A DNA stretch of 64,000 nucleotides from Lepidurus packardi (taxonomy: Eukaryota; Arthropoda; Branchiopoda; Notostraca; Triopsidae), in the NCBI GenBank assembly GCA_023053545.1, contig JAKZAN010000005.1, positions 930,001 through 994,000 on the forward strand. The letters run 5' to 3'. Numbering within the stretch: position 1 is the first letter of the stretch; each line of letters opens with the position of its first letter. Below the pieces are notes generated by a model, which was not told the origin of the DNA, ran no database searches, and saw only the letters and a program-made list of their open reading frames with translations. The position numbers were made by a program, and so were the translations under genes. Of the stretch, positions 5,192-64,000 are shown in pieces.

Positions 5192-8100
5192 CTAAAGGTT
5201 GGTAACATAATCAGTCAGCTTATCAGGAGGTCTAACAATTCGCCGTGGATAGCGACTCTTCGGAACTTCGTTTTCCATCATGCCTTCCAGGACGGCCAAA
5301 GGCTCTTCTTCTAACTTGTTCGCCGCCTCACCCTCTGAGCTCTCGCAATCTCTGTCATCGGCATCATCTTTCGGGCTTTCGCTGTCGCCGCTGTAATAAC
5401 CTTCTCGGTAAGGTTTTAGTTGGGAAATGTGTGCCGGAAACACACGCCAGCGTTTCTTGGTATGCAAGCCGGAGGGGTCCTCAACGCGATAGGTAACCTC
5501 TGTTAGTTGCCTGGCGATACGAAATGGACCGATGTATTTCGGCATGAGTTTTGAAGATTTCCCCGCGATCCGAATCTGTCGTCGCACCTAAACTAAATCG
5601 CCAATCTGGTATTTTTGTGGCCTACATCGTCGCTTATCGTAATTTCGTTTTTGTCGTAACTTGCGCCGAACCGATTGTTCCATAGCATGCCGTCTAGTGT
5701 GTTCCACACGATCTATAAAGTCTTCGTACGACTCCGGAGCTTCCACGGGCCAGGGATACTCAACGTCTTCGGGCAAATTTGGCAACCGACCGTACACTAA
5801 CTCAAATGGGCTATATCCCGTACTCTCCTGGCGTGCCGTGTTAATCGCGAATACTGCTTGCTGGAGTACCAAATCCCACGTGATTTGTGTTCCGTCTACA
5901 TATGCGGCCAATACTTCTTTTAAGGTACGATTCATTCGCTCACACAACCCGTTCGTTTGAGGATGGCATGCTGCAGCCATTGAATGGTTAATCCCCAACT
6001 GCTCTAAAGCATCTTCAAGTACTTGAGCCGTGAATCCTGTCCCACGGTCGCTGATTGACTTCATTGGAATTGAATGTCGCCAGATAATGTGGTTCGCCAG
6101 GAAGTCTTTTACAACGAGGGCAGACGTATCCGGTACGGCTTCTGCTTCGACCCACCTGGTACAGTAGTCTATGCAGACCAAGAGATGTCGATTACCTCGT
6201 GGGGTTTTCGGAAGTGGTCCCACGTGATCAATTCCCAATATGGCAAATGGTCGTTGTGCCGCTTCGGTAGGTTGGAGGAACCCGAAAGGCATTCCAGGCG
6301 GCTGTTTGTGACGCTGGCAATGGCCACAAGCACCAACAAAAAGCTTGATGTGTTTGCGCTGATGGACCCACCAATACCGTTCTTGTAGCCGAGCTAACGT
6401 CTTGCTAACTCCGAAGTGCCCTCCGGTGGCACCCGCGTGACACGCCTCCAATACAGGTCTTCTCATTGCGCGAGGCACTACCAACAGTAACCTCCGTCCG
6501 TGATGTCCGTTTCTTCGATACAGGCCACCGTTGATCACCCGGAAGGTAAGCAATTCAGGGTTAGCGGTATCCTTCTTCACAGGGTCTTCTTGTTTCTCCA
6601 GTTCTTCCAGTTTCTCAATCAGTCTGCTTATTTCAGGATCTGCTCGTTGGGCCAAGATGAAGTCATTGCGTCGGACAGCAGCATCAGCAAGCACGGAGAT
6701 GTACAATTCGGGGCGTACATCCGTTTCTTCGGGGATTCCATTGCTGTTGCGAGAGAGAGCGTCGGCTACCACGTTAAGCTTACCCTTCCTGTGGATGAAG
6801 CGGATTTCGTGTTCCATTAGACTCATGATCCAGCGGCCAAACTTTGCGTTCGTCTCTTGTTTGGTGTGGAGCCATGCGACGGCAGTGTTATCCGTGACAA
6901 CCAGGAATGGGCGTCCATAAATATAATGGCGGAACTTCTCAATCGACCAGACAACCGCCAACATTTCTAACTCGTTGCTGTGATAGTGGCTCTCAGGATC
7001 GGTCAATCTTCGGCTGATGAACGCCACGGTGTGTTCTGTCGTCCCGTCCTTCTGAATAAGCGCTGCGCCAAGCCCACCATAACTGGCGTCTGTGTGGATC
7101 TCACAGCTCAGATCGTCTCGAAAATGTTGGAGGATGGGAGAAGATGATAATCTCGTCCGGAGTTCTTCAAAGGCAGTGGACTCTGCTGGTCCCCATGACC
7201 AACGACGACCCTTTTTAAGGAGTTCATACAACGGACTGGCAAGGTGCGAAAACCCTGCTACGAATCGTTGGTAATAGCCTGTCATCCCCAAGAACTCCCT
7301 AAGGTTTCGAATGTTGGTGGGTACTTTGAACTCGCGAATACCTTGAACTTTCTCGGGGTTTGGCCGAATTCCATCTTGGTCAACGAGGTGTCCAAGAAAA
7401 TGAATCTGCGCCATGGCAAAGTGACATTTCTTCTTCTTCAGGGTCAAACCAGACTCTCGGATGGCGTTTAACACTGCTCGCAGACGTTTTTGGTGCTCTT
7501 CAAAGCTGCGTCCAAGTACCATAATGTCATCCAAATATACGAGGCAGTGCTCCCATTTAAGCCCTTCTAACACGCGATCCATCAAACGTTGAAAGGTAGC
7601 CGGTGCGTTCGACAATCCAAACGGCATCTTTTTGAATTCAAACAGCCCATCTGGAGTGCTAAAGGCTGTCTTTTCACGGCAAGACGATTCGATTGGCACC
7701 TGCCAATATCCACTGGCTAAATCTAAGGAGGTGAAAAACGTTGTTCTTCCAAGACGATCCAGCACGTCTTCGGTACGGGGAAGCGGATATACGTCGCGTT
7801 TAGTGATGGAATTGAGTCGAAGGTAGTCAACACAGAAGCGTATTTCGCCCGTCTTCTTCCGGACCAGTACTACCGGGGACGCCCAAGGACTAGCGGATGG
7901 GATGATGACGTCGTTGGCCAGCATTTCTTCTACTTGCTCGGTGATAATTCGGCGCTCACCAGGGGATACTCGTCGTGGCGGTTGGTAAATAGGTTTACTG
8001 TCCCCAACATCAATGGTATGGGAGACTAATGTTGTACCCGTAATAGGCTTATTGGGACCATCGAAGCAGTCTTGATACTCTCCCAGTAGAGTACTCAACT

Positions 8101-9172
8101 CTTCTCGCTCAGAATTGGACAAATCTTCCCCCATACTCCATTCTGTAGTGGACGCTTGATGCCCAGGTGTCGCTTTAGAAAGGGAACAACATAACCGGCT
8201 TCCGTTTGTCCCCAAAGGGTCACTTACGGCGTCTACGTATTGGGCGTTGACCAAACGCTGTTTTGGAGTAAGGCGAAGCGTACGTTGACCAATGTTAATT
8301 ATGGGGATCATCACGCTGTTTTCGTGAACACTTAGCAGTGACGCTGGACTAATCCATTCTTTACCAGGCTTTCCACACAACGTCGTCGGGGTACTGATAG
8401 TATCTGGGGCTGTTCGTGGTACCTTTGCTTCGACAAACACGAGTGTACCGGGGGCAATGTTGACAACCTCCGCGACGGTTAGTGTGCCATTGGTTTTGGG
8501 TTCTTCTCGGTCGATTATGTCGATCTCGCTCATCTGCCGTGTCACAGTTTCCCAATCGTCCGACTCCCTTCCCCTGACATCCACTGCTCCACCAGGCCGC
8601 AGTGACGTCATCTCTGGACGGTGCTCGTCATCACCAGTCAGTTTGGCCTCTGCTTGGCCATCCCCCACCGTGACCTTCATCCCACCGTTACCATCGGGAC
8701 ACAGAGAAACTTTGCTTTTGGCGATCCAGTCCATACCCAAAATTAACTGAAAAGGAGACGACTCCACCACCGGTACGCTGTCCAATTGTACTTCTGTGTT
8801 TTGAAATGTAACCCTAAGTTGCACCATCCCCAAGGGACGCACCAAACTTCCATCGACGCTACGTAGGTCTACTCCATTAGTCGGTATCATGTCGTTTGCC
8901 AGAGATTTCGCCGCGTCCGCTCAAATGACGCTGACACACGCTCCAGTGTCTACGAGTGCGTCATATCCACCAATAGGATGAACAGTCACCTGGACCAAGG
9001 GTAACTGTCCTTTCGTCGTCGTCAAGCTTACTATTGGGTGTGCCGGACCTGGTCCCGTGGACCGGCTTCCCCGTTTCCCGCAGCAGTACGTTGCGGGCAT
9101 TCGCGCGACATGTGTCCTTCTTCTTGGCAGGTATAGCAAACACCCCGTCGTTGACGCTGGGGTTGCGGGCAT
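5192..9172 (-). pseudogene. Gypsy 1 pol (protease-RT-RNase H-integrase) with two nonsense codons
   Basis: Three open segments share one frame (9172-8921, 8890-5588, 5587-5192). They are separated by a TGA at 8921 just after the protease active site (VDTGA) and a TAG at 5588 near the integrase C-terminus. The protease region continues with LGMDWI. The RT has FCVDYLRLN, TSLDLASGYWQ and the catalytic YLDD. RNase H has HTDASYGGLGA. Integrase has an HHCC zinc site (HFGVSKT ... CGHCQRHK) and the D,D,E core (GIDHVGPL, ISDRGTGF, CERMNRT), and ends in a GPF-type chromodomain-like module (YIGPFRI). Pol is in a different frame from gag, as expected for programmed frameshifting. Confidence 0.92.
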
Positions 9173-10230
9173 TCACGGGCCAGGTGTCCTTGTCCACCGC
9201 AGTTATAGCATCCAGCACGTCGCTCACGGGGCTCTGCAAGAGTGTGAGGCACAAAATTGGCGGGTGGTGTTTGGACATTTCTTCGGACATCTACGTCGGA
9301 CATTCGGACAGGGACTCCGGGGTTGCGGTCAATTCGGTTTTCCAAGCTCGTGAGGCGGTTCAACATCTTCTCCAAAACTTCATCGATGGTCCTTGCTGAC
9401 TGAGGAGGGTATAAGGGTGGTGTTCCAGAGACCCTGTGTGTCGAATGGATGGGCGGTGCAGTGTTTGGATACACCGGTGTAATAGATGTTATTGCGGCGA
9501 CCGGCGAAGCGATTGCTGCGCTGCCCATTCCTTGTTCCACGTTATTAACCTGCGCAATGAAGGCGTCCACGGTAGCTGGCGCACCCGCCATGACCGCTGC
9601 TGCTAATTCTGACCGGAATAGCCCCCAGGCCAATCGCTTGACCTGCTCGATTTCGGGAAGAACTACCGGGCATAATCGACAAAGTCGGAGTTTGTCGTAA
9701 ATGTACACAGTGGTCGGCTCTCCAGGAAGCTGTCGTCTAGCCTCCACCATACGCCCCCATTCCTCCAACGTCAACGTCCTTCCAAACGCGCCTACGAGAG
9801 CCGTTCTCCACGAGTCCCAATCCTGGTTGTCCATTCCTTTGGCTGCATGCCAAAGGTAGGCTGTGTCCGCGATCTTGGATAAGGCGGCTCGTAGACGATC
9901 CTCTGCAGTCCATCCTTCTACTGTTCCTACACGGGCAATCGTGTCCAACCACGAATGTACGTTTTCCATGGGACCCCCGGTAAAATGGGGAATCGCAGCT
10001 AGGCTCGCTTGTGAAAGAGCTCTTGGTGGATTAGCTTGGCATGGAACAGCTTGGTTACCCAGTTGACCAAGAAACGCCTCTCGTTGAGCCTGAAGTTCTT
10101 CGCGAAAAGCTAATCTCTCCCGCTCCATGACGCCGGCTTGGCGTTGCACCACAACTTCCAACAAGCGTTCGACGTCGTTAACATCCATCTTCGGTTCTTG
10201 ATAGTAGTCCCGGCCGCTACGCGTTGGCAT
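9031..10230 (-). CDS. Gypsy 1 gag with two CCHC zinc knuckles
   Basis: Gag runs from a likely ATG at 10230 (MPTRSGRDYYQ). The frame is open slightly further upstream but without an ATG. It ends at 9031. The C-terminal nucleocapsid part has two canonical CX2CX4HX4C knuckles (CYNCGGQGHLAREC and CYTCQEEGHMSREC). The middle carries retrotransposon-gag capsid features (the WEEWGRMVEARRQL-like region). The frame is intact, unlike pol, and overlaps the start of the protease frame. The product would form the virus-like particle. Confidence 0.85.
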   Translation of the reverse strand: MPTRSGRDYYQEPKMDVNDVERLLEVVVQRQAGVMERERLAFREELQAQREAFLGQLGNQAVPCQANPPRALSQASLAAIPHFTGGPMENVHSWLDTIARVGTVEGWTAEDRLRAALSKIADTAYLWHAAKGMDNQDWDSWRTALVGAFGRTLTLEEWGRMVEARRQLPGEPTTVYIYDKLRLCRLCPVVLPEIEQVKRLAWGLFRSELAAAVMAGAPATVDAFIAQVNNVEQGMGSAAIASPVAAITSITPVYPNTAPPIHSTHRVSGTPPLYPPQSARTIDEVLEKMLNRLTSLENRIDRNPGVPVRMSDVDVRRNVQTPPANFVPHTLAEPRERRAGCYNCGGQGHLARECPQPQRQRRGVCYTCQEEGHMSRECPQRTAAGNGEAGPRDQVRHTQ

Positions 10231-10558
10231 ACAGGGATAAAAACAAAAAGGGAATTCGAAAACAGATTCTGACAACAATCAACTTTTGGAGAAATAAGTT
10301 TCAATGAACTTGCAGGATCGTCAACACTGAATTGTTCTTTGGACATACAACACGCAACGCAATAATGAAAAATTAAGAACCACCGGACTACGCAACAGTG
10401 GAATTTGATTAGATCGAATTAGGCAACAATGAAATTTTGGAGAAATCTTATAAAAGTTTTGGAATTTTAACAACTTTGAGGAGTTAACCAACTTAACTTT
10501 TCGCAACACTACCCTTTACAATCACGAATTACGCAACTGGGCGCCACTGACACGTTCT

Positions 10559-10842: not shown

Positions 10843-10934
10843 ATATATATATATATATAAAGTCTTTGTATGGGAGTTATGGATCAGCTTGGAATTCAAA
10901 TCAGTATTTTTTCCCTTCTTAAAAAATAAATAAG

Positions 10935-11182
10935 ACTTTCGACTACACCGAGCTCAACAATGCGGCTTTGTTTGAACCGGGATTCAATGGGGACAATGCG
11001 GGTCCTGCGACTGGGATTGAGCCTCGCGGTCCGCCGGATACGCCAAGGTCTGGCGGAGGATCCATCAACGGGGGTACTAGCCCCGATAGCAATACCGTCA
11101 CTCCGACGTCGCCTTCCCGATCCCGTGCGTGGTACGATTGTGGCCGACAAGGCGAAGCGGACGAAGTCCAGATCCCGAAAGT
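10935..11182 (+). CDS. grh: grainyhead exon (N-terminal border of the DNA-binding domain)
   Basis: The frame reads from an AAG acceptor at about 10934 through Ser/Gly/Pro-rich sequence to RAWYDCGRQGEADEVQIPKV. This matches the start of the Grh/CP2 DNA-binding domain (RAW-D-GRQ--AD--QIPK). The exon ends at 11182 at a GTAAGT donor with two bases of the Val codon, and the next exon supplies the third base. The 5' border is less certain than the 3' border. Upstream exons with the activation domain are not in the window, because the Gypsy element and satellite lie to the left. Confidence 0.8.
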
Positions 11183-12143
11183 GTAAGTTTTTACATTTAT
11201 GCGAATTCATGCCAATGTGCGTGTTGGAATGCAAACACAGTGTTACTATAGCGTGGTAGAATAACTGTAGTTGCATACACTTTAGTGACTGCAGATATCT
11301 AGACTAGTTATGCTTTATCGTTTTTGAACCTCTTTTTTTTATTAAACTTGCTTTTCGGGACTCTAAAACTTTTGTTGGAGTTCCCCAGTTAAACTTAATC
11401 CCCACACAAACCTGCTCTAGAAATAAGTGGAGGAACCTGTGCTATTTCAGTTGTAAACAAGACTCTTGTTCCTCTCGTTCTGGGAGGATTTTATTTGCCG
11501 ATCCGGTTTCTCTTGTTCAGCCATTTTGACGCGTGTCGTGTTGCGATAACTTCCGTTCTTACTGTATACCGTGAAACATAACCGGTGTGGATGGATCTGA
11601 TAGTACCGGATCCATTGCACTCTGGGGCTGCGGCCCGAAAAAACTTAGCCTGTCAATTCAGGAAAACAAGCAACAGAGGAACATAAATTATTAGCATAAT
11701 TAACAACTAGACTAGTCTGACTCGTGCCACGACTAATAGGCCACGACTAATATGCCAATCTAAGAAAAACCAGTCGTGCAGCAAAGGCGGTGACCGTTTT
11801 GCCTAAAAGATGTTTAGCGAATGACGACTCTTTGGGCATAGGGAATACAGTACTAAATCGGAAGTTTTAAACCAACTAAGGGGCCTTCTTTTCCCAGGAT
11901 GCATAACACCGAGTGGTGCCTGTGTTACACAACTATACAATTTCTATGATTTATTTAAGCTTTCAGACAAATTACTTCACCTTCCTGTTTCAACGGTAGC
12001 TCTGTTGAATACAGTAACATCTAGGCTTTAATAGTATTCTGTGCAAGCTACCCTCAGGTTACTTAAGCAGTGGAGAAGCCACGTACCATACTCTGGATCG
12101 CGCTTAAGCTCCTTCATTTGTATTTCGTTATTCTTTCCTGTAG
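11183..12143 (+). other. grh intron
   Basis: This intron has a GTAAGT donor and a CTGTAG acceptor. It is about 960 bp with no ORF, repeat or recognisable regulatory motif. Confidence 0.75.
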
Positions 12144-12306
12144 ATATTCCCAGCACGGGTTCCGCTATCATTTGGAAAAGCCCATTTCGACGAGCCAGTT
12201 GCGGGAGGATGACCGTATAACGTATATAAATAAGGGCCAATTCTATGACATTACGCTGGAATATATTCCCGACCCGGAACATCATCTCAAGAATCAGACC
12301 GTCAAG
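12144..12306 (+). CDS. grh: grainyhead exon, DNA-binding domain
   Basis: The acceptor TAG at 12141-12143 joins in phase with the previous exon. The exon encodes [32 protein letters not shown] and [17 protein letters not shown]. This is the diagnostic core of the Grainyhead DNA-binding domain, an immunoglobulin-like fold related to p53. It ends in phase 0 at a GTAACA donor. Apart from a few conservative changes, the segment follows the conserved metazoan Grh pattern, which implies a gene under constraint until recently. Confidence 0.95.
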
Positions 12307-13542
12307 GTAACATTCGACATTTGCATATATTTCCCATGCCAGGATTGGATTCGAAGATTAAAAACAAAATAAAAAAAGAAAAGCTTTTCTCTTAATATCG
12401 CTACGAAAAGTGTCGTTGAAAGCCAAGTTTGATTGCGTGTATACTGGTGGCTATTTGGTGTAACCGTTTTATGGTCCATCAATCTCCGAAGCTAAAATGG
12501 GGAGGGGCTGGTGTAGTTTTCTAAACCGCTCTTCTACAATTGCAGCAACTTCCCGACTGGCATAAGTTGCACCTTTATTTTCTACTGTCTTCTGACAAAC
12601 TCATTTGGCGTCCAGGGTTAAAACTGTACTTCACATTTGAAATGTCTGGCGAGTTTTTTAAGAGAGTCGTAAAATGCTAAATCAAAGCATATACAAGTCC
12701 TGATTGATAAAGTTGTAAAGTCCTTAATTTTCTGGGGTGAAAATTTGGCGTAGTTACTTGGCAGCTGCGACGTAGTCATCCGTTTCGTGTCGTATCCTGT
12801 CTTAATTTTTGTTTTTTTGACTCATTAACCGTATCAAGGACAGTTAGTCATAAGTATATGGAAATGTTATACGTGTAAACTTTCTCTCGCCATAAAACTG
12901 TGTGACCTGGATCGACAGAAGCTTTAAGAAACTTTGCATTAATTACCAAGATGGATAGCTGTGATTGTCATGAAGGTCCCTGGCTCTGCATTAATTTGCG
13001 TGGCCATTTTGAGTGACTTTTTCAAATCAGATCGAACCTCAAGGTGTTACGCAACAAGAAATGTTAGAGTGACGGTGGCTTGCTACGACGTGTCCTCGAT
13101 TGGTTTTGTTGTTTATTAGTGGGTTCTTATAGAAAAAACATCTTTCTTCGACTATATCCTGCAGTTAGCCCCCCTAGAAGTACTTCCTAATGCAAATGCA
13201 ATCACATGATCACGTGAGAAAGTTCCTTTGCTTTCCTGTCGTTCTTTTCGTCTAATCAATCTGAAGCGGACCTCTTTGTCACTCGCCATTGGACGGCTAC
13301 TCTATCATCCGAAGCAATTAACTCGAGGAACTGTATGCTTCTTTATTTGCGGACAGAAGTAAAGGTGCAAAGGGGGGAAAGTTAATGGAATGGTGTGAGA
13401 AGTAACAGAAGCGTGCATATGTTGGGAGCGCTGCTTACCTTTTGCAATCCATTACAATTACGATAGTCCGCAAAGAGATAATTCGGAGGCGGAACTTTAA
13501 TTACCTTTTCTTTCTTTTCCTTTTTTTTGTTATTCACCGCAG
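12307..13542 (+). other. grh intron
   Basis: This is an intron of about 1.24 kb ending in a pyrimidine-rich tract and CAG. No repeat family or RNA gene was recognised. Confidence 0.75.
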
Positions 13543-13650
13543 AGCGTGGTCATGCTGGTGTTCCGTGAGGAGAAGAGCAATGAAGAAGAGACCAAAGCTT
13601 GGCATTTCTGGCATAGTCGTCAGCACAGTATCAAACAACGCATCTTGGAT
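13543..13650 (+). CDS. grh: grainyhead exon 3, 5' portion (interrupted by P-like element)
   Basis: After the CAG at 13540-13542 the exon encodes SVVMLVFREEKS, KAWHFWHSRQHSIKQRILD, the next part of the Grh DNA-binding domain. At 13650 coding sequence stops and the terminal repeat of a P-like element begins (CACAGTATAAAGG). The expected end of the exon (GCAG before GTAAGC) reappears at 14569-14572, after the element and the duplicated octamer tcttggat. Exon 3 is therefore split by a transposon that created an 8-bp duplication (13643-13650 and 14561-14568). Confidence 0.93.
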
Positions 13651-14560
13651 CACAGTATAAAGGTTTCACAGTATGGTAACTGGGGGTATCTTCCAATGTA
13701 AAGGGATTAACACGATTTTCTCGGTCCCAAGAGGATGTGAGGGTACGAAGGCTTATATGGGGGATGGATTCCCAGACTGTGCCATGTACCCCCATGTAGG
13801 CATTCCTAATCTACTAGAGAAAGGGTTCGAGAAGAGAACAAAACATTCACAAAACGGGGGACTGGTGACCTTTCTCTCGGGCACTCTAGGGAGTTTTGGG
13901 CTGACGTAGGGTCCTACCGGCAACGCGCGCATTTGAAAGTGTTTTTGGAAAAAACGGTTGATTTCCAGTTGATTATTTTTTAAATTTGTTCGTTCGAGTT
14001 AGGATTTACTATACACTTAAAGAAGAAAATGTAGCTGTAGCAGAAAGAGCCGTAGTTAAATGTGTTAAGAAAAATACTAAACTTGCAAAAGTTAGTAACA
14101 TTTAGGAATAGTTGTAAAGTACCAATGTAATGGATAACTCGTATATAGACATAAATAGTCATAACAACACATATAGACATTAATATACATGGGTATTTTA
14201 TAGTATATGGGGTTAAACCTGTATACTATAAAACACCAATGTATGGGTTGCAAAATAGACTGCCTCCTCGTGGTGCAACCTGGGTAACGCGAAATAGTCT
14301 ATAATGTGTATACGTGTTGTGCTTTGACCTAGTTAATTCATCTTTTATTTTAAGCTTACATAGTTTAAAGCAATAGATTTAAATTACGCGCTTTGTAAAC
14401 CGTCGTGACCTTTTTTGAACTGCACTGGGAGGTTTGCGAATGTACCCTTTCATTTTCTGGCCTTTTACCTGAATATTACTCTGGGGACCGAGAAGGTCGT
14501 CAGAAAACCTTAACATTGGAAGATAGCCCTGTTAGCATACTGTGAAACCTCTATACTGTG
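13651..14560 (+). mobile_element. Non-autonomous P-superfamily element (910 bp) inserted in grh exon 3
   Basis: Left end CACAGTATAAAGGTTTCACA and right end TGTGAAACCTCTATACTGTG are inverted repeats differing by one base over about 25 bp. The flanks are a perfect 8-bp duplication, tcttggat. Both subterminal regions match the ends of the transposase-bearing element at 32815-36030, while the transposase centre is deleted. Orientation is that of grh (transposase 5' end to the left). Position 13676 carries a GTAAC donor-like site inside the left terminal region. Confidence 0.93.
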
Positions 14561-14568
14561 TCTTGGAT

Positions 14569-14572
14569 GCAG
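14569..14572 (+). CDS. grh: grainyhead exon 3, displaced last four coding bases and native donor
   Basis: The four bases gcag followed by GTAAGC are the native exon 3 end, giving a phase 1 junction to the exon at 17735 (Asp-Ala-Asp-Thr across the splice). They are now separated from the exon body by the element and one copy of the target duplication. Confidence 0.85.
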
Positions 14573-17500
14573 GTAAGCGCGTTGCAGAACTTTTCGGAAT
14601 CTATCCTAATTGCTCGACACATTTGTCACCTTGCTTTGAACTTTTCTTTTTTTGGCATGCTAATCCTTCGAACAATTCGGTTCTTTTACGCTAGAGGCCA
14701 ATCACATAGGCGCCCTTACAAGGCAAAAGAACAATAGTTTAGTCTGCGTTTATGGGCAAAGAGATATGCCTTGAACTCATGGGAAGCCCTTCTGTAAAGC
14801 TATACATTATGCAAATTATACCCTGCGTGTTTAGGTTACGACAATCCAAAAGGCTAAGATGCATTGCAACAACGCCACATAAGCTGGTTGTTGTGGTACT
14901 AGTAGGTCTCTCCATATGTCTCTCCATAGGTCTCTCCATATGACGCTCCCAATTAAATGCCGCTGACCTATACCTTTTTTGTTCAAAACATAAAATTTCC
15001 CCCGAAAAGAAAGAAATGCTTCGACCTTCCGTAAGTTACACGGGATTCAGGGATTTGCATACGCACTAAAAAACTTGTAAAACTCTTCAAAGAGTCAAGT
15101 TGGGATCATTTCGCCCTTCGCAAATTATAGCGTGCGATGCGACTGAACCCGCTTACTAAAAAAAATATATAAAGGAAACAGAAAGATAGAAAAAGGAAAA
15201 AAGGTGGGAAGAATAGCAAGGAAATCACCTCGCCTTCTGGAAATGGGTTTCTTAGGACGAATCTTGGCGTAGTTATGCCAACTTTTCCGCTTACCAGGGA
15301 AGAAGCCAGGTCTCGAACCGTCTTTTTTTTTACCTCCAAATAGGCCATAAACTGTGCGAAAATAAGGAAGTAAAAATAATTAAAAATAGTCCTTTTGGGA
15401 TGGAAGCGGAGTGGAAAGAGTTATTAGAAGGTATAAAATGCGCCCACGGTGCTTAGTTAGCGTTTTTAGGGGTGCGTTCCAATTGGCGACTCAACCCGGG
15501 TTGAAGTGGGTTTTCAACTCGGGTTCCAGAACTCGCCTGTTTCAAGTGGCCAAACTCGGGTTCAAAGCTGAGTTTGGGGAAGGGTTGTTCGACTCCACTT
15601 TGGATCAGGGTTGAACACAGCAGAAGCGAGTTGGGGGACGTTTCGCGTCTGGGTGCTAGGTGGAGTCGTGGTTCCATGTAAACAAAACAAAGCTTCATTG
15701 ATTCAAACTAAGATTCATTGTCTCTGATTACAAGTTATATCGATTCCAACCATAACCCGATTGAATAGTACAAGTGCCTATTGGGACGCGGGTTTACTCA
15801 ACCCGAGTTCAGAAAACTCAACTCCCTAGTCGAGTTCGCAATTGGAACGCACCCTAGGTTCTCTTGTCTCAATTACTGGATCTTAAACTAGAACCTCAGC
15901 ACGGAAGAACAAAGAAAAAGTGCAGACCCCCCCCCCCCCCGTTCCAAACTACGTTCTTTCTTCTTCTAAGTTTCTTCTTCCAATTATAATATTCCCGTAA
16001 AATTAAACCTCCCTATTGCCAAAATTGCCAGGTTTCCACATTTTCTCTCACTTTGAAGCCAAGCAAGGTAAATCGTATGACATTTCGTATGCAGCAATAC
16101 CTCGCCACTGGGGCACCCAGATAAAGTTCTTTTTTGAAAGTTTCATTTGGAGATGCGTTCAACATAATATTTCTTTTTAGGGAAAAGCATTTTGTTTATG
16201 TATATATAAACATGTGCGTTTACGTTCAAACAGGCCGGATTTCGTAATGATATGCGTTCTGTTAGAAACTTCAGCTCAATTCAACCGTCCCTACTATTAT
16301 TACCTGCCTACTGCAACCAACGGCCACGGTGGAAACAAGAGAACGATAGCTTTTGGCTCCGTTTTTTATCCATCCTTGGTCATGGCACAAAGGATCGGGA
16401 AAGTTGAGACAAGAAGACAGTTTCTGAGAAACGTACGCTAAGTCATATGCAACACCATGCCGGGCCACCTTTTGTATTTTACCTCCCGTTTTCGGGGTCC
16501 CGGGACCCCCTTCCCTTCTAGCACTAAATGAGTACCAGCGACTTATGATGCGTCCTGTGGTTCATACTATAGGCTTCACGGATTAACTTACTTTTACTTC
16601 TGTCTTACTTCGTAGTACTTAGTTCCTTAGTTCGAATAAGGGGAAGGAGCACAATAAGAAAAATGCCCGAAAATATAGAAACAAAATCAGACATGGAGAA
16701 AACGAGCTTGTATTAATAGAAATAACTTGTTTGGGGGACCAGTCATGTCCAGGGAGGTTTGTGGATAAGATGGATTCCGTTTCTCACACGCATAGAAATT
16801 GCTCATCATCATCTCTTGATGCTCGAGGTAGGATACACACCTTGCCAACAGGGAATGAACTTCGGCTCTCTGTCCCTTCAACCTGGCCCAGAATTACGCT
16901 GGGAAGAGTGGGGGGGACTGGAGAGATTGGCAGCTCCAAGGAAGTATTATGTTTGTGAAAAATAGAGGAAAAAAGAAAGATAGAGCGTCTTCCATTACAG
17001 CCAGCAGGAAGTTGGGCCAAAACCCCGAGCTATTTTTCCACGAGCATCAGGTTGCGCCATAGCGGTGGTACATAGAGGCTTTCTAAGGGGGAGATAATAG
17101 CGTTACCCTCTTACCTCTCGATCTATAACTCTAATTCCATCAAGTAAAGCTTTTGCTCGAAAGGAACTCAAAAGAACTTGCCAGGATTTTTCTCGCACCT
17201 TCTTTTCCAGGCCTTTGGCTCCTATCAGGGACCTTTTAGATGCTAAAGAAAGGCCCATACTTTTAGAATGGTACGTCTGCCATTTTTCGTCTTCGTGATG
17301 CCAACCCCTTGAAAAGGAGAAACTTGCCAGTGAAGCAGAAGAGGCTGTTTCGTGAAAACGAGGTTTTTGGATTAAACTTGCAATTTCCACCTCAGATTTA
17401 AGGTTTGCTTTACCAGTATAAACGCGTTTGGGTAGCGGTAGAAAATAGTGCATTTTAACACTTTAATGTTAGCCACGGTTAATGATGTCTTGGGGAAATT

Positions 17501-17734
17501 TGATGGAAAGTCTCCAGCCACTACAGTTCATGCGAACTGTATTTCATAGTGTAATTAAGAGCTATTCCTAATTTATGTTTTTAGGTTTTGAATTCTATTA
17601 AACTTTTTTCTACTTTTGGATCATGGCGATCGTGCTAGGCATTTCAAGTAGCAAATAAGCAATTATTAATTAATTAATTTTTAATTTAGGCCCAGTTATT
17701 AATTTTTTGTCCTTTTCTTTCGTGTCTATTATAG
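14573..17734 (+). other. grh intron with a small TIR element
   Basis: This is a long intron (3.2 kb). It contains a small inverted-repeat element (15467-15856) and a poly-C run near 15930. A 116-codon minus-strand frame at 17103-17453 has no recognised homology. The triplet of ggtctctccata repeats near 14906-14940 is a local tandem repeat. Confidence 0.6.
15467..15856. mobile_element. MITE-like element with about 20-bp terminal inverted repeats
   Basis: The left end taggggtgcgttccaattgg is mirrored by the right end caattggaacgcacccta. The interior holds several copies of caactcgggttc/aacccgggttga in both orientations. Target duplication could not be fixed, so the superfamily is unassigned. 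Confidence 0.7.
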
Positions 17735-17829
17735 ATACGAAAAACAGTGTGGGCCTTGTAGGCTGCATTGATGAGGTTGCCCGTAATGCTAGTGCAATCT
17801 ACTGGAATCCGTTGGAAAGCTCAGCCAAG
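17735..17829 (+). CDS. grh: grainyhead exon, DNA-binding domain
   Basis: Following a TTATAG acceptor the exon encodes TKNSVGLVGCIDEVARNASA and IYWNPLESSAK, highly conserved in Grh family DNA-binding domains. It begins with two bases that complete an Asp codon with exon 3 (phase 1) and ends in phase 0 at a GTGTTA donor. No disabling change is visible. Confidence 0.95.
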
Positions 17830-18299
17830 GTGTTATAATTATATTAAAAAAAAGTGGGATAAACCTTGGGTACCTTTGCGTTGTCTGTGCCATTTTGCAA
17901 GAGGTCTCTATGCCTTTCGGGAATTATTTTCTTTGTGGAAAAAATGTTTTCTTTTCGGTCGAATTATCTGAATTTTTGTCAGCGGTTCTGCACAGAAAGA
18001 GATGGGGGCCAAGCCAAGGAGATGGCTGCGTGACAGTTGGGAGATAGCCAGGGATGCATGATAGACTGCATAAAGCTATGTGTCTGGCATATTTACTACA
18101 TCAGCCTCATTTGCATATCGCAGGCAAAGGGACAGGGGGCGGCTGCCTGCATCTGCATGTCTGTTTGTAATTTTTACAAATTAAATACCATTTTGAAACG
18201 GTATTTTTTGCTTTATAAAAGAGAAGATGTCAGCTCCGGTAGTTCTGCGTTTTATACCTTCAGCTAATCATTAATGCAAGGTATGATCTCTTTTTCTAG
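17830..18299 (+). other. grh intron
   Basis: This 470-bp intron ends in TTTTTCTAG. No additional feature was seen. Confidence 0.8.
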
Positions 18300-18356
18300 A
18301 TCAACATTGCCGTCCAATGCCTGAGCACAGACTTCAGTACCCAAAAAGGCGTGAAG
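18300..18356 (+). CDS. grh: grainyhead microexon, DNA-binding domain
   Basis: This 57-bp phase 0 exon encodes INIAVQCLSTDFSTQKGVK, one of the most conserved Grh blocks. It is bounded by a CTAG acceptor and a GTAAGT donor. Confidence 0.96.
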
Positions 18357-19484
18357 GTAAGTCAAAATCCTGCACCGTATCTGCTCGTTCGTTCTGCTTC
18401 GTCCGGGGGGGATGGCATGTTTTTTGTTTGAAAAAAATGTAATTTGGAATTCCAAGCTCGCCACGTTCATATTGTTTCAGTCGTATCTGAAATTCACGTA
18501 TTGGTTACCTTGCACCCCCATTTTTTTGCCCTCTCGGAACGGGGCAATGGCCAACGTAAAAAGGCTTTATGGAGGGTAACAGGGTTGCGTGTTGCCTTTT
18601 TTTCTTAGAAAGGATCATTCTAACGGGGAAATTACGAGCTTTTTTCGCTGAACAAGGCAGTTTTCTATGAGAAAAGAAAAACCCCTTTACTAACTCACGC
18701 AGAGCCTCAAATTCTTTTGAGTCCCCTCTTATTTATTTTTCTTCTTATTTTTACCTGGCATTCATATTGAACACATTGAAGACCTTTCTGGCGATCTAAC
18801 AACCGCGAAGCTTTCCTAGGTCAAAAGCAACTACGTAATTTATACCCCTATACCCACCCTCTTTTTATTTTCTACAAAAAATGGATTTTATACTTTACCT
18901 TAACATCTACCATTTCTACCTGAACATCTCTTGCAAAGCACCTTTCTTATCCTGGGAGGAGAAGAAATAACATAACACCTGGTCATACAAACGAAATCGT
19001 AGGGCCACCTACTGCACTGTCAATTAGTATGATTGACACTCGCGAAGAAATTTTCCCACTCGGATTATCAAGAGCGATGCGTGTTAAAAACTTATATATA
19101 CAGTATACCAAGCTTTAGCTTGTTGTCCTATAACGAAGCTGAAAAGACATGCATGCAGTGTGTGATGGACAGGCATCTGTACCTTTCCTCTCTGCATGCA
19201 ATCATAATCTTATGGTAAGACAAAGGGGAGAAAAATAACACAAAACAAGCTCAAGAATGCGTCTCCACGAGCGGCATTGCGAACGTGATGGCGGTTCCCT
19301 TATTCGGGTACAGGGACAGCGAACAAGCTTAGAAGTTATGCCGTGCCAAAACTGGCATTACCTTGTTTAATGCCGATACTTACTTCGCTTTTTCTTTTCT
19401 TTTTTTTCCTCAACCTGCTCTCTTGTGTGTCGCCGTTTCTGTCATTCCGACCGTCTAACCGTCTTGGGATTCGGTGGACATCAG
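18357..19484 (+). other. grh intron
   Basis: This is a 1.1-kb intron without recognised repeats or genes. The acceptor region is pyrimidine-rich upstream of CATCAG. Confidence 0.75.
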
Positions 19485-19586
19485 GGCTTGCCGCTGCACA
19501 TTCAAATCGACACATACGACGATCCCCGAGACAACAGTCCTGTGTCCCATCGTGCTTACTGTCAAATCAAGGTTTTCTGTGGTAAG
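19485..19586 (+). CDS. grh: grainyhead exon, DNA-binding domain
   Basis: This 102-bp phase 0 exon encodes [16 protein letters not shown], then [13 protein letters not shown]. The family usually ends this exon with VFCDK, so Gly replaces the conserved Asp next to the final Cys. The donor is GTAAGA. All other residues follow the Grh consensus. Confidence 0.95.
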
Positions 19587-21553
19587 GTAAGACATTTGAT
19601 TCCATGTTTTTATGGCTTTGTAATTTTCCTTGTTCTTGTGTTGTGTGTGTGTGTGTGTGTGTATCGTTTCCATGCACTAGTGTTGCTGTAAAGGAATGGT
19701 TACGAAACAAAGTTCAAAAGTCTAGTTTTTTACACGGTTTTTTAGAAAGTGTTTAACAACGTGGTTCGTTTGGATGCAAGAAGAAAGTAAGCACCAAGTT
19801 TGTTTAACATTTCTTTTGGAGCCAGAAAGGTGTGGGAAAGGAGAAAGACGAGTCTTTTAGAGTGTGTATACACCGCGTTTCGAATCTTTCCATAGAAAAA
19901 CACCATTCCAAAGCATTTATCACCCGAAAAAGAAATCTCGCATCTTTTTCGCGTAGTTTAGTCGGTTCCAGCTACTTTCCCTTGCCTTCTGTAAATCATG
20001 CATACACATTGAGAAAAGCTGAGGTAAAGCTCCACAGGACAAAATAAATCCCGAATTTATTAAGACACGTAGCAATCACTATTTCTCCCAGACTATGAGA
20101 AAAAAAAAGATTACTCAGTTTACTTGAGGGTGTCTTTTTTTGTCGTAGTAGACAATAACCAAAAATTCGTACACGCGAAGTCGATTGAAAACATTGTTTG
20201 TAGCAGCTTAACCCCCCTCTATTGGGCCAAAACTGCGTGAAACCTAAGACGAGAAGCTGCCGTAACTCATAATCGGACGACTTTACGACGGTCGTAGCTT
20301 GGCAGGGGTTTAAAAGTTTACATTCGTATCCGACATCAATGTTTTTAAGAACCCCGAGATTTGCATAATAAACACCCGTGTATCGCCAAGCCGGAAGACA
20401 GAACATCAAAAGTTCCGCGAGCGTCATACATGTCATGCATTCAAAATAGGGGCGAAAAGAGCCGTGACGTGACTTGACTTGGCTTGTGTGTCGATTGAGA
20501 TGCCCTCCAAATGGTATTACTTTACTTTAACTTCGTGGCCTTTTATATTCTTCTTTTTCTTTTGGGTCGAGTAAAACATATAGCTGTATAGTCATACCCC
20601 CCCAACCGCATGCAAACTCGAAAAGTGGTAAGAACCTGAAAGGGGCCACAGTTGCGCGCACCGGTCATGATTAATATCCCAGCTATAAATCTATCAAAGG
20701 GAAGCTTACCACTAAATTAAACAGATTCTTTAAACTAAATATTCCCTAGAGTGACGAAGCAAATATTCATTACCCTAAAAGACCGCACCCAAAAATCGTA
20801 TTACCGGAGCACATATGTAGTTATTTTCAAGCCATATGACACGTTTTATCGGATCGTGAGATTTTACTTCTATCAAATTGCATTCTTTTGGAAATCATAG
20901 AAAACCCAAATAACCACGTGCACAAGATTACAATCCGCCATGAAAATCTATCAAGTCTCCAGATTCTAACGTTCTTACGATACGCAGACGGTTTTTCGTT
21001 GCGCTATCCCGAACGTGTTACTTCCACTGAAACTGCGCTTGATAAAGGAATAATATAAATAAAAACCACAGATTTTGGGGACAAAAGGTTTAAAGTTTGG
21101 GGACTGTAAAATTTGCAAGTACAGGATAGAAGACCAAGGAGTAATAAAAGACGGTTATAAGTGGCCAATTGGCATCAACTATAAATGTCACTTGACCTTT
21201 GTCTTTGTCTGTTGGTTCTGCTGCAGTTTCACATTTTTTTAACCAATCCATGTTCACTTTTATGAGCACTTCTACCCGAGTGTTAAAAAAACAGACAGTT
21301 TACTGAAACGACACATTGAAAGAAAGAAGCAAATACATCAGTGTACTGAGTGGTCGCGTCCGCAAAATTCTCGCTAAGTGGAATAATGGCGTTGGTCCAA
21401 ACGCTAAGTATCAAGACAGTTTTTGCAGAGAGACAGGATGACATAGAAACTCACTTTTTTAGGGCAAACGGTCTTGTTGTATTCCCTAAGTTTCGGTAGG
21501 AGAAGTTCAATAATGACAGTTCTTTTTACTTTCTTGTTTGCTTTGGCAAATAG
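19587..21553 (+). other. grh intron
   Basis: This intron of about 2 kb contains a short (GT)n run at about 19644-19660. Minus-strand frames near 19996-20436 look like chance ORFs. No mobile element was recognised. Confidence 0.7.
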
Positions 21554-21736
21554 GGCGCTGAGCGGAAAACGCGCGACGAGGAACGCCGAGCTGCCAAACG
21601 CAAAATGACGGCCACGGGACGCAACAAGCCATTGGACGGTTTATACCACACCTCGTGTCAACGATCCGAGTTCTACTCCATGGCCGATTTGAGCAAACTC
21701 CCTGCTCTTTTCACGCCCTCCGAAGACATGGACAAG
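21554..21736 (+). CDS. grh: grainyhead exon, end of DNA-binding domain
   Basis: This 183-bp phase 0 exon encodes GAERKTRDEERRAAKRKMTA, the basic Grh signature, and continues to RSEFYSMADLSKLPALF and PSEDMDK before a GTAAAC donor. The family's KKLDELYHP appears here as NKPLDGLYHT. Exons for the C-terminal dimerisation domain should follow downstream but were not found. A Gypsy insertion starts 70 bp into the next intron and the oppositely oriented NEDD1-like gene lies beyond. Grh proteins control epidermal differentiation and barrier genes as dimers. Confidence 0.95.
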
Positions 21737-21807
21737 GTAAACATTAAACATTTGCTAAACATTTCCAGTAACGTTTGCTTATTCAGTACTATTATTATTA
21801 TTGTTAG

Positions 21808-21973
21808 TGTAATATTTGTTTACTCAAATATAATAATTTAACACACCGATGGGTCGTTTACTCGACGATAATCGGGGAGCTTTTTATCACACTCCTGCTC
21901 TCTGTTATGTCCGTGTATTTACCATCCTCATTCCCCGTGCTGCCCTCTGTTGGCTGCTTAGCACGATGTTACA
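21808..21973 (-). repeat. 3' LTR of Gypsy element 2
   Basis: This 166-bp LTR starts TGTAATATTT and ends GATGTTACA. It is preceded by target duplication gttag (21803-21807). It appears to differ from the right LTR by a single base (ccgtgctgcc against ccgtcctgcc). Confidence 0.95.
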
Positions 21974-26097: not shown

Positions 26098-26119
26098 CCA
26101 TTTAGGCCACCTAACTCCA

Positions 26120-26175
26120 GCCGTCTGGGATCACTCCCCACGTGGAATCACTCCCCACGAGGATCACTCCCCACG
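26120..26175 (-). repeat. 17-bp tandem triplication in the Gypsy 2 gag leader
   Basis: Three near-identical copies of the 16-17-bp motif atcactccccacgtgga lie just upstream of the open gag frame. The ATG frame beginning at about 26207 runs into this block and stops, so the block coincides with the loss of a clear gag start. Confidence 0.7.
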
Positions 26176-32814: not shown

Positions 32815-35800
32815 CACAGTATAAAGGTTTACACAGTATGGTAACAGGGGTATCTTCCAATGTTAAGGTTTTCTGACGACCTTCTCGGTCCCCAGAGTAA
32901 TATTCAGGTAAAAGGCCAGAAAATGAAAGGGTACATTCGCAAACCTCCCAGTGCAGTTCAAAAAAGGTCACGACGGTTTACAAAGCGCGTAATTTAAATC
33001 TATTGCTTTAAACTATGAAGCTTAAAATAAAAGATGAATGAACTAGGTCAAAGCACAACACGTATACACATTATAGACTCTTTCGCGTTACCCAGGTTGC
33101 ACCACGAGGAGGCAGTCTATTTTGCAACCCATACATAGGTGTTTTATAGTATACAGGTTTAACCCCATATACTATAAAATACCCATGTATATTAATGTCT
33201 ATATGTGTTGTTATGACTATTTATGTCTATATACGAGTTACCCATTACATTGGTACTTTACAACAATTCCTAAATGTTACTAACTTTTGCAAGTTTAGTA
33301 TTTTTCTTAATACGTTTAACTACGGCTCTTTCTGCTACAGCTACATTTTCTTCTTTAAGTGTATAGTAAATCCTAACTCGAACGAACAAATTAAAAAAAT
33401 AATCAACTGGAAAAGCTTCGCATGTCAATTCAGATAACCAAGCAGTTTAAGTTTAGCAACAATAACACTAACTATCCCTGGCTCACAAAAGGATTCCTGA
33501 TAAGTTTCCTGAAAAACGGACTCACACTTAAAAAGATATAACTGATAAACTGAATAAAGGCCTCGCTCGGGACTATTAATCTTCCACATGAAGGTCGCTT
33601 AATTTACGCCCTTTCCTCGGTGTACGTATGAGCGGATGCTGGGTTACACTGTACAGTACGATACTTGCAAAACTGACAATCATGGCGCTGAAAAATTTTA
33701 AGCAAAAATACCCAACAACGTAAACAAAACCCGTCTCCTCTAACTCGTCCGGATGCCACTCAACTTCTTCTCTTAGCGCCTCTGTTCCCTCGCGAAATTT
33801 GGCGTTTTCTTCAAAATCTTCTAAAGACAAAATCGGAACGGAAGACCGAGTCTGAAGAGCTCCTAGTAATTCACAATTACCTGAACTATTGTCAGACATC
33901 CGCTGAATCTTGGCTAACAAATTCTTCTTGTACAGGTTAAGGAATCGAAGTGGTGTAGGGTTGCAGGAAAGCCCACCGCTCGCTCTAATGCTACCAAACA
34001 AATGTTCTAAGTTGTCCTGGTTGAAGTTTCTTAAGCGGAGATTGTCAATTGTCATTGTTTTTATATAAATGCCTAACTAAACCTTGACAGCTTGACTCGA
34101 AAGCTTGACAGCATTAACCGATAACAGCCAGCCATTTACACATTTAATACGCTTCGTGACATTCTTACCAGCCTTAGAAATAGCTTTAATGGAACGCAGA
34201 AAGTTTGAAAGCTTCTGAAGTGTTATCCAGTGAGCGCTACTAAAAACAGTGGGGATGAAAATTGGACGTCGCAAAGCTTTGCGATCAACAGATGACAACC
34301 ATTAAAAATATCAAACAAACTGTCGAAATTTAAGAGGAACTCTGCGGTTTGAAGAGCTTGAACCGGTAGCTTGCTAAACCGAACTAAAGTTCGGATTCCT
34401 GCGGCAACAGTATGACTGCAAACCTGCGAAGCTAGTTTAACCTTCATCTTCAGAAAACTAGTTGTGTTAATATGCTGTAGAGTTAACATTCTAGCTAAAC
34501 GTAATTTTTGTTTACGATCTATTTCAAAAAATCTACGTAAGTGACCCCACTTTGCTACGTTAATTTTGCCCGAACCGAATACCATGTAATACTTAATGAG
34601 GTTGTTTCTGATACTTTTTAACAAGTGGGGTGCGTCAAAAGAAAAACTAACTAATCTTGAAGCAGAACGGGGTTTCTTCAACTGTACTCTTAACATTGAT
34701 ACTAATTTTTCGGCATGCGCAAGTTTTTTTGAAACAGCAGCACAATCGGCACGCAAACAAGATGCCTGGGGTAAGGTTGGGATTTTGGAAGTAGAAAAGT
34801 TACCATATTCAAATTCACTATACAATTCCAAACCATCTAAAGAGGCATGAAAACCGTCAAGATCGATAGTCTCGGGGTGAATGTCCCGAATACTACTAAT
34901 TTCTGGTGAAGCTGGGGAAACAAGCGTTGCTTTAGCGGGGTGAATGTCCGGAATACTATAAATTTCTTGGGAAACTGGAGAAAGAGACGTTTCTATAGAA
35001 CTCTGTTTTTGCGCGTAGTTGTGCTCAGCAGAAATGGATGTCGAAGCTAACTGGACTGTAAAATGACCTTCGGGTGGTTCGCAAACAGGAATAAATGGAT
35101 GTCGATAGCAAGAAGATTGCTTACAACTTCGAAAATGCTCTGAGCATATGCGTAAACCATTTTTTGGTAAAACTAATCTCTCTTTACCCATAACCTTTAA
35201 CCATAATTCTGAACAATTGTCATTCGGAATACGAAAAAACTTTGTTCCTGCTGGTTTTCTATAGGATGCGTTCTTACAAAAAGGAACACAACAAAGTACG
35301 CTAGGCATGTTTAATTAACTAGCTTAACTATTATTTTACACTAATATTACACTTAGCTAAAACTCACTTATAAACACACTCACTTATATTACACTTAGCT
35401 AAAACTTATATTACCGAAATGAAAACTTAATGAAAAAGTTTAATTTAATTAAACCGTAATTCGTCTTGAAAAAAAGAGAAATTACAGAGTCGTGTTAAGA
35501 AAACGGTAAAAATCTGCTTTGAAAGAAATTGCGAGTGAGCTCTGTGAAATTTGCAACAAACTGCACGGAAGCGCAATAGCAATTGCTGACGAGTTGATGA
35601 GACGACGCTATTTATATGAAATTAAAAACAGTAGAACGTAGCAAGTGCTTGTCTTTCTTTGCGGATTAGCAAGCAATGTGAAGTGAAAGATATTACCGTA
35701 AGACTTTAATACCAAGATCCAGAATAATCAATTCCGGGAGAAAAACTTTCAAAATCGCGCAATGCTAGTCGAATCTTACGTCAGCCCCAAACTCCCTCGA

Positions 35801-36030
35801 GACAAAGGTCACCAGTCCCCCGTTTTGTGAATGTTTTGTTCTCTTTTCGAACCCTTCTTGTAGTAGATTTGGAATGCCTACTTCTGGGGTAGGATGGGCA
35901 AGTCTGTGAATCCATCCCTCCTATGTTCCTTGTTACCCCCAAATCCTCTTGAGACCGAGAAAATCGTCTTAATCCCTTTACATTGGAAGATACCCCCTGT
36001 TACCATACTGTGTAAACCTTTATACTGTGG
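32815..36030 (-). mobile_element. P-superfamily transposon, near full length (3216 bp)
   Basis: The left terminus CACAGTATAAAGGTTTACAC matches the inverted right terminus exactly over the first 40 or so bases. Inverted similarity extends to the subterminal segment with tatcttccaatgt. Between them a THAP-domain transposase is encoded on the - strand. Sibling copies have 8-bp target duplications, the P-family value. For this copy the flanks (cagagggg and gggggagg) share only a G run, so its own duplication is unclear. It is nested in a LINE endonuclease reading frame. Confidence 0.92.
33576..35308 (-). pseudogene. P-element-like transposase with THAP domain (one frameshift, one nonsense)
   Basis: The ATG at 35308 starts a THAP zinc finger (CCVPFCKNASYRK ... 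ICSEHF, C2CH). A predicted coiled coil and the P-transposase core follow (SFDAPHLLKSIRNNL, KLASQVCSHTVAAGI, then RNFNQDNLEHLFGSIRASGG), as in Drosophila P and vertebrate THAP9. The frame changes once near 34298 (FDIFNG to SSVDRK). A TAG at 34077-34079 then interrupts the same frame before the QDNLEHLFG block. The final segment ends at 33576. With only two lesions the protein was functional recently. THAP binds subterminal DNA and the RNase H-like core catalyses GTP-dependent cut and paste. Confidence 0.9.
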
Positions 36031-44749: not shown

Positions 44750-46580
<1,831 letters not shown>

Positions 46581-51244: not shown

Positions 51245-52250
51245 CACAGTATAAAGGTTTCACAGTATGGTAACTGGGGGTATCTTCCAATGTAAAGGGA
51301 TTAACACGATTTTCTCGGTCTCAAGAGGATGTGGGGGTAACAAGGAACATAGGAGGGATGGATTCACAGACTTGCCCATCCTACCCCAGAAGTAGGCATT
51401 CCAAATCTACTATAAAAAGGTTCGAAAAGAGAACAAAACATTCACAAAACGGGGGACTGGTGACCTTTCTCTCCGGCACTCTAGGGAGTTTGTGGCTGAC
51501 GTAGGGTCCTAGGGCCTCTATTCACTATCTTTTTAAGTGTGAGTCCGTTTTTCAGGAAACTTATCAGGAATCCTTTTGTGAGCCAGGGATAGTTAGTGTT
51601 ATTGTTGCTAAACTTAAACTCCTTGGTTTATCTGAATTGACATGCGAAGCTTTTCCAGTTGATTATTTTTTTAATTTGTTCGTTCGAGTTAGGATTTACT
51701 ATACACTTAAAGAAGAAAATGTAGCTGTAGCAGAAAGAGCCGTAGTTAAACTTGTTAAGAAAAATACTAAACTTGCAAAAGTTAGTAACATTTAGGAATA
51801 GTTGTAAAGTACCAATGTAATGGATAACTCGTATATAGACATAGATAGTCCTAACAACACATATAGACATTAATATACATGGGTATTTTATGGTATATGG
51901 GGTTAAACCTGTATACTATAAAACACCTATGTATGGGTTGCAAAATAGACTGCCTCCTCGTGGTCCAACCTGGGTAACGCGAACTAGTCTATAATGTGTA
52001 TACGTGTTGTGCTTTGACCTAGTTAATTCATCTTTTATTTTAAGCTCACATAGTTTAAAGCAATAGATTTAAATTACGCGCTTTGTAAACCGTTGTGACC
52101 TTTTTTGAACTGCACTGGGAGGTTTGCGAATGTACCCTTTCATTTTCTGGCCTTTTACCTGAATATTACTCTGGGGACCGAGAAGGTCGTCAGAAAACCT
52201 TAACATTGGAAGATAGCCCTGTTAGCATACTGTGAAACCTCTATACTGTG
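51245..52250 (+). mobile_element. Non-autonomous P-superfamily element (1006 bp)
   Basis: The ends CACAGTATAAAGG and CCTCTATACTGTG are inverted. The flanking octamer cccataac is perfectly duplicated (51237-51244 and 52251-52258). The left 270 bp match the 35780-36030 end and the right 730 bp match the 32815-33570 end of the transposase-bearing copy. It is therefore a simple internal deletion that removed the whole transposase. An 80-codon frame (51628-51870, minus) is shared with the other copies. Confidence 0.95.
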
Positions 52251-61186: not shown

Positions 61187-61668
61187 TTCTGCTACAGCTA
61201 CATTTTCTTCTTTAAGTGTATAGTAAATCCTAACTCGAACGAACAAATTAAAAAAAATAATCAACTGGAAAAGCTTCGCATGTCAATTCAGATAAACCAA
61301 GCAGTTTAAGTTTAGCAACAATAACACTAACTATCCCTGGCTCACAAAAGGATTCCTGATAAGTTTCCTGAAAAACGGACTCACACTTAAAAAGATACTG
61401 AATAGAGGCCCTAGGACCCTACGTCAGCCCCAAACTCCCTAGAGTGCCGGAGAGAAAGGTCACCAGTCCCCCGTTTTGAGAATGTTTTGTTCTCTTTTCG
61501 AACCCTTTTTATAGTAGATTTGGAATGCCTACTTCTGGGGTAGGATGGGCAAGTCTGTGAATCCATCCCTCCTATGTTCCTTGTTACCCCCACATCCTCT
61601 TGAGACCGAGAAAATCGTGTTAATCCCTTTACATTGGAAGATACCCCCAGTTACCATACTGTGAAACC
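61186..61668 (-). mobile_element. Truncated P-superfamily derivative
   Basis: This begins inside the element (ctttctgctacagctacatt, equivalent to 33329) and runs to cctt, about 11 bp short of the terminal inverted repeat. Left and right ends are therefore both missing. The internal deletion joint resembles that of 51245-52250. It lies precisely between the BEL fragment and the inverted duplication. Confidence 0.88.
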
Positions 61669-63139: not shown

Positions 63140-64000
63140 CACAGTATAGAGGTTTCACAGTATGCTAACAGGGCTATCTTCCAATGTTAAGGTTTTCTGA
63201 CGACCTTCTCGGTCCCCAGAGTAATATTCAGGTAAAAGGCCAGAAAATGAAAGGGTACATTCGCAAACCTCCCAGTGCAGTTCAAAAAAGGTCACAACGG
63301 TTTACAAAGCGCGTAATTTAAATCTATTGCTTTAAACTATGTGAGCTTAAAATAAAAGATGAATTAACTAGGTCAAAGCACAACACGTATACACATTATA
63401 GACTAGTTCGCGTTACCCAGGTTGGACCACGAGGAGGCAGTCTATTTTGCAACCCATACATAGGTGTTTTATAGTATACAGGTTTAACCCCATATACCAT
63501 AAAATACCCATGTATATTAATGTCTATATGTGTTGTTAGGACTATCTATGTCTATATACGAGTTATCCATTACATTGGTACTTTACAACTATTCCTAAAT
63601 GTTACTAACTTTTGCAAGTTTAGTATTTTTCTTAACAAGTTTAACTACGGCTCTTTCTGCTACAGCTACATTTTCTTCTTTAAGTGTATAGTAAATCCTA
63701 ACTCGAACGAACAAATTAAAAAAATAATCAACTGGAAAAGCTTCGCATGTCAATTCAGATAAACCAAGGAGTTTAAGTTTAGCAACAATAACACTAACTA
63801 TCCCTGGCTCACAAAAGGATTCCTGATAAGTTTCCTGAAAAACGGACTCACACTTAAAAAGATAGTGAATAGAGGCCCTAGGACCCTACGTCAGCCACAA
63901 ACTCCCTAGAGTGCCGGAGAGAAAGGTCACCAGTCCCCCGTTTTGTGAATGTTTTGTTCTCTTTTCGAACCTTTTTATAGTAGATTTGGAATGCCTACTT
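63140..64000 (-). mobile_element. Non-autonomous P-superfamily element, cut by the window end
   Basis: The terminal CACAGTATAGAGGTTTCACA starts at 63140, preceded by gttatggg, the complement of the cccataac target of the 51245 copy. It is the same insertion as 51245-52250 carried by the inverted duplication (coordinates sum to about 115390). Its other end lies beyond 64000. Confidence 0.94.

Follow-up and report, generated by a model that had tools for sequence, protein, structure and literature searches.

The interrupted grainyhead copy

The window is the whole 64,000-nucleotide stretch of Lepidurus packardi DNA that was analysed, C4:930001-994000; C1, C4, C5, C6 and C16 are labels for contigs of the 108.6-Mb assembly (344 contigs). 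It contains a copy of part of a grainyhead (grh) gene, in which an exon is split by a transposable element. The features of the copy and of the element family in the window are as follows.

10843..21808, forward strand: segment common to the window and the C1 grh locus, with the element and some gaps excluded; five blocks, 92.2-95.2%
10935..11182, forward strand: exon Z of the grh copy, coding end ...RAWYDCGRQGEADEVQIPK
12144..12306, forward strand: exon A of the grh copy
13543..13650, forward strand: exon B of the grh copy up to the insertion
13643..13650, no strand: left copy of the target duplication TCTTGGAT, 8 bp, present as a single copy at C1:6485254-6485261
13651..14560, no strand: internally deleted P-type element, 910 bp, multi-copy, with inverted ends and substitutions relative to the copy majority
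13676..13681, forward strand: element-borne GTAACT, candidate frame-keeping donor, present in the left end of 8/8 aligned copies
14561..14568, no strand: right copy of the target duplication TCTTGGAT, 8 bp
14569..14572, forward strand: GCAG, with which exon B ends; the native donor GTAAGC follows
17735..17829, forward strand: exon C of the grh copy
18300..18356, forward strand: exon D of the grh copy
19485..19586, forward strand: exon E of the grh copy
21554..21736, forward strand: exon F of the grh copy, beyond which no grh exon was found in the window
32815..36029, reverse strand: larger member of the P family encoding THAP, GTP-binding insertion and RNaseH_C domains, around which no matching duplication of 8 bp was seen
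51245..52250, no strand: further P-family copy with a perfect 8-bp duplication, CCCATAAC

An AG acceptor precedes exon B, which opens at 13543 and up to 13650 reads SVVMLVFREEKSNEEETKAWHFWHSRQHSIKQRILD. The preliminary description of this DNA had stated that an exon of the grainyhead DNA-binding domain is cut by a 910-bp element with a perfect 8-bp duplication, and this was confirmed in the letters. When read without the element, the window exons match the CP2 DNA-binding domain (PF04516) with 200.0 bits (209.6 for the C1 locus), and the encoded domain matches the solved GRHL1 and GRHL2 domains. All seven exons retain their AG and GT. The window copy holds only these seven (Z-F): with 8 outgroup queries, neither the conserved N-terminal VDLPSPDSGIG exon nor the C-terminal grh exons were found in the 75 kb of C4:919001-994000, and none of the 10 genome matches to the C-terminal GRHL1_C domain lies on C4. 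Thus, the copy shares the CP2 domain with grainyhead/GRHL genes, but differs from them in that no GRHL1_C domain and no conserved N-terminal exon were found with it. Literature searches on grainyhead pseudogenes or duplications with the DNA-binding domain found none, and those on Lepidurus genome assembly and transposable elements returned matches concerning Artemia only.

The surrounding DNA is crowded with mobile elements. Two retroelements (5588-10278 and 22303-26130) carry reverse transcriptase, RNase H and integrase domains, from the order of which we take them to be Gypsy-like; the latter occupies the place where C1 has its C-terminal grh exons. The window also contains a satellite at 1-1460 (20-bp units, ~74 copies), a tRNA match at 45019-45084 and nuclear COX1 pieces at 45274-46407, whose partner on the other strand (C4:1021792-1022931) perhaps reflects an inverted duplication. 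The nuclear copy of mitochondrial COX1 has one stop; among the best 7997 candidates, its identity is 98% with the proteins of Lepidurus apus and L. couesii and 96-97% with those of Triops. Indirectly, as befits a nuclear copy, this indicates a notostracan crustacean, most probably Lepidurus or a near relative.

The element and its family

The window element is bounded by outer inverted repeats of 34 nt (91%), and a subterminal pair spans 51 nt (80%). At least 22 genome copies, the window's own included, cover the full 910 bp at 92-100% identity (among the best 40 of 431 candidates scored), and the element is therefore not a chance arrangement. Ten copies, again including the window's, were inspected for an 8-bp duplication, which was perfect in six, compatible in two (an 8-bp fit would require a change of the final one or two bases of the element) and not matching in the other two. 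Relative to the majority of eight aligned copies (the eight best in the genome-wide listing, a majority that serves as no more than a proxy for the source element), the window element carries 3 substitutions in 910 positions. Another family copy, at C1:11764121-11764935, has different flanks and no matching duplication.

The P-like identity proposed in the preliminary description is supported by a longer relative of 4.1 kb, C5:11480051-11484145, the ends of which are 97.5% and 91.8% identical to those of the window element. It encodes THAP, TNP-like RNaseH N and C and GTP-binding insertion domains (PF05485, PF21787, PF21788 and PF21789, in three of the four reading frames scanned). The terminal inverted repeats, the perfect 8-bp target site duplication and a longer transposase copy (THAP, RNaseH-like and GTP-binding) with the same kind of ends, all of which characterize the P superfamily, were thus found. 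The genome contains 28 matches to PF21787, some of them outside the family of the window element. With the 33 transposase relatives found in the protein database, identity reaches no more than 43% and extends over part of the query. Among the matches listed genome-wide, 4 of the 41 longest family members fall in the window. Within these 64 kb, the family is represented by four additional copies or fragments (32815-36029, 51245-52250, 61185-61671 and 63140-64000). Elsewhere, another grh exon also carries a P insertion: the 4.1-kb copy splits exon F of the grh copy on C5, with the duplication GCCACGGG.

According to a review (PMC7776569), internally deleted Drosophila P and zebrafish P-like elements likewise have an 8-bp duplication and terminal inverted repeats, and their short copies share ends with a longer copy that encodes a THAP transposase. 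The same review gives a 31-bp perfect inverted repeat for Drosophila P and 13 bp for the zebrafish P-like elements, whereas the ends of the window element start CACAGTATAAAGGTTTCACAGTATG and its 34-nt outer repeat is imperfect.

A fuller locus with an empty site

A search for a second grh locus, as proposed in the preliminary description, recovered one with the empty site on C1. This fuller locus (C1:6476177-6488498, reverse strand) has an uninterrupted exon B with one TCTTGGAT. Its N-terminal VDLPSPDSGIG exon lies at C1:6488271-6488498 and was matched by 4 of the 8 outgroup queries. At C1:6476177-6476812 there are three C-terminal exons, and two of these match GRHL1_C. A probe of 521 bp spanning the empty site matched C1 as a whole, C4 in two parts flanking the element, and a short C5 piece ending before exon B; a 901-bp upstream probe gave matches at C4, C5 and C1 only. 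The CP2-domain scan of the assembly returned 14 matches, which outside the window are located at C1:6479965-6486758 (reverse strand), in single-exon fragments at C1:~11.76 Mb and C5:11.48 Mb, and in a pair on C5 labelled TFCP2-like from its CP2 and GRHL1_C matches, the matched exons of which are 33-45% identical to the window's. The two members of this pair (C5:7273982-7274650 and C5:7296463-7297131) are ~22.5 kb apart and have identical profile scores.

That an essential gene was hit by the transposon, or needs rescue, as the preliminary description had considered, is not supported in view of the fuller, better conserved C1 locus with its empty site; the alternative raised there, a loss-of-function paralogous copy, is supported. 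Exon structure and frame arithmetic would suit a window copy that is the essential grh itself, either disrupted and rescued by splicing or present as a heterozygous lethal allele, but this is scarcely credible, as the empty-site locus is on another chromosome-sized contig and the two differ by ~4% in aligned noncoding sequence, in addition to large gaps. The grh function appears to be supplied by C1. An insertion segregating at a single locus was also considered and judged unlikely: exon B was found at no place other than C4, where it is filled, and C1, where it is empty; these copies differ by many gaps.

Other partial grh copies

Beyond that of the window, the genome yielded five more partial grh copies, four of them with in-frame stops. 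Counting all six partial copies, four have in-frame stops (one being also frameshifted) and one has lost a donor; the window copy is alone in having no stop, frameshift or lost splice site, its only lesion being the insertion. The copy at C5:11465809-11486023 comprises parts of exons Z, A and C-F, with a frameshift and a stop in exon A. That at C1:~11.76 Mb has only exons E and F in the surrounding 29.5 kb, and the GT donor of its exon E is changed to AT. Exon B was not found in either of them. The remaining copies are pieces of the C-terminal exons (C16:594701-595500, C6:121700-122400 and C5:12388800-12389560), ~92% identical to C1, each with at least one stop. Identity between the C6 and C5 pieces is 99%, and both lie within ~0.13 Mb of contig ends.

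In principle, the window and C1 copies might be haplotypes of a single locus that scaffolding has put in different places, since ~96% noncoding identity could suit a very diverse species. Exons of the binding domain are, however, found at four places (C4, C1:6.48 Mb, C5:11.47 Mb and C1:~11.76 Mb) that are related in a near-star fashion and carry different gaps and insertions. As two haplotypes cannot yield four copies, this explanation is considered very unlikely.

Divergence, constraint and timing

The window copy and C1 differ at 32 of 953 positions in coding sequence and at 328 of 8575 in noncoding sequence (Fisher p 0.53). This comparison is not specific to the window, because similar results were obtained for C1 and C5 (22/692 coding, 282/6809 noncoding) and for C1 and C1:~11.76 Mb (7/288 coding, 78/2025 noncoding, p 0.31). 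The Ka/Ks ratios, all from small counts, were 0.57 for window-C1 (317 codons), 0.65 for window-C5, 0.34 for window-C1:~11.76 Mb, 0.51 for C1-C5, 0.27 for C1-C1:~11.76 Mb and 0.82 for C5-C1:~11.76 Mb. Six replacements and five synonymous changes could be placed on the window branch.

The amino-acid differences between the window and C1, 20 in total, were compared with 11 outgroup Grh proteins (hand-chosen from 120 listed, with 1094 found), which side with C1 in 14 cases, with the window in 4 and with neither in 2. In 149 columns, taken as conserved, no more than one outgroup disagrees; the window departs from these at 11 and C1 at four, three departures being shared; the discordant sites are thus 8 versus 1 (two-sided p 0.039, a sign test resting on 9 sites). 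Residues kept in 10 or 11 of the 11 outgroups are replaced in the window copy (R->L, G->D, Q->H, H->R and D->G), and two conserved-column replacements, K->E and H->R, are common to the window and C5.

No indel or stop is present in the 317 aligned window codons. In the alignment of the window with C1 there are 67 gap openings in 9710 columns, and at that rate ~7 coding indels would be expected (P ~0.0007 for none). Constraint on the C1 branch and the repeat-rich introns explain part of this absence, and the window copy itself may have experienced a period of selection. The missing indels and stops, the retained splice sites and a window-C1 Ka/Ks below 1 speak against a simple pseudogene.

At the 2180 sites common to the four copies, 40 private changes were counted for C1, 35 for C5, 32 for C1:~11.76 Mb and 23 for the window, with a single site backing each of the three possible groupings, i.e. 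an unrooted near-star. In the noncoding DNA around the element, 90 of 6809 positions carry window-private changes. The Poisson intervals for the element (0.07-0.96%) and for the flanking noncoding DNA (1.06-1.62%) do not overlap, from which it follows that the insertion is younger than the separation of the window copy. Judged by the point estimate, which has a wide error, the insertion would be about a quarter as old as the separate existence of the copy.

The element-borne donor

The frame arithmetic of the preliminary description for the GT at 13676 proved correct: ATG|GTAACT ends an open frame in phase 1, as the native donor does. The product would read ...RILD-HSIKVSQY-D-TKN in place of the native ...RILD-A-D-TKN, with HSIKVSQY replacing one Ala. 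Among 66 GT sites scanned, that at 13676 is the joint best match to CAGGTAAGT, tied with one other. Only two GT sites are both open and in phase 1, and 13676 is the better of them (6.5 versus 3.5 in a simple consensus count); exons Z, A and F have native donors with the same score, and that of exon B scores 8. Removal of the element as an intron, with the GT at 13676 paired with the AG at 14534-14535, would leave 58 extra bases (counted by hand) and be out of frame. The GTAACT belongs to the element family and not to this particular insertion, since it occurs in the left end of all eight aligned copies, and its position in the grh frame seems incidental.

Transposon insertions that are removed or bridged by splicing are known from maize Ds and C. 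elegans Tc1. The window element resembles these cases in having a usable-looking candidate donor near its end; it differs in that the host grh copy looks dispensable. Splice rescue through 13676 is mechanically possible, and nothing here requires it. Even perfect splicing at this site would not yield a normal Grh from the window copy, because the copy is without recognisable N- and C-terminal parts and differs at conserved residues.

The C4 copy could instead be a working, shortened paralogue, with a binding domain and no C-terminal part, in which 13676 is spliced to exon C at 17735 and HSIKVSQY follows RILD. The open frames and intact AG/GT of its seven exons, the lack of coding indels and the quality of the in-phase donor at 13676 agree with this, but the replacements at conserved residues, a coding divergence from C1 about equal to that of the introns and the missing terminal exons and GRHL1_C domain argue against it, and we regard it as improbable. 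Still less probable is the bolder proposal that C4 may express a shortened grainyhead with eight transposon-encoded residues in its DNA-binding domain, a product that, lacking the C-terminal part, would modify or inhibit the full protein. We infer that the C4 copy is non-functional.

Origin of the interrupted copy and its meaning

Very probably, the window contains an ordinary insertion of a transposon into a spare, partial grh copy, tolerated as the C1 locus is untouched. In the proposed course of events, seven internal grh exons would have been copied from the fuller C1 locus (6.48 Mb) to C4, C1 to C4 being the apparent direction, and other grh pieces would have been copied to further places. 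The C4 copy, with which no N- or C-terminal coding exons were found, would then have been drifting. After the copies had parted, a non-autonomous P-type element presumably jumped into the third recognisable exon on C4, producing the 8-bp duplication; its mobility would need transposase from a longer relative. The insertion would have been tolerated because the C1 locus was untouched.

The P family itself, in a branchiopod crustacean, is of modest interest; several copies that are 98-99% identical to the window element, together with longer transposase-coding relatives, suggest recent movement. With regard to grainyhead, the apparent paradox of an essential gene cut by a transposon is removed. 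What is seen instead is a common pattern, in which a duplicated piece of a gene, surrounded by many repeats, gains insertions because a better copy of the gene remains.
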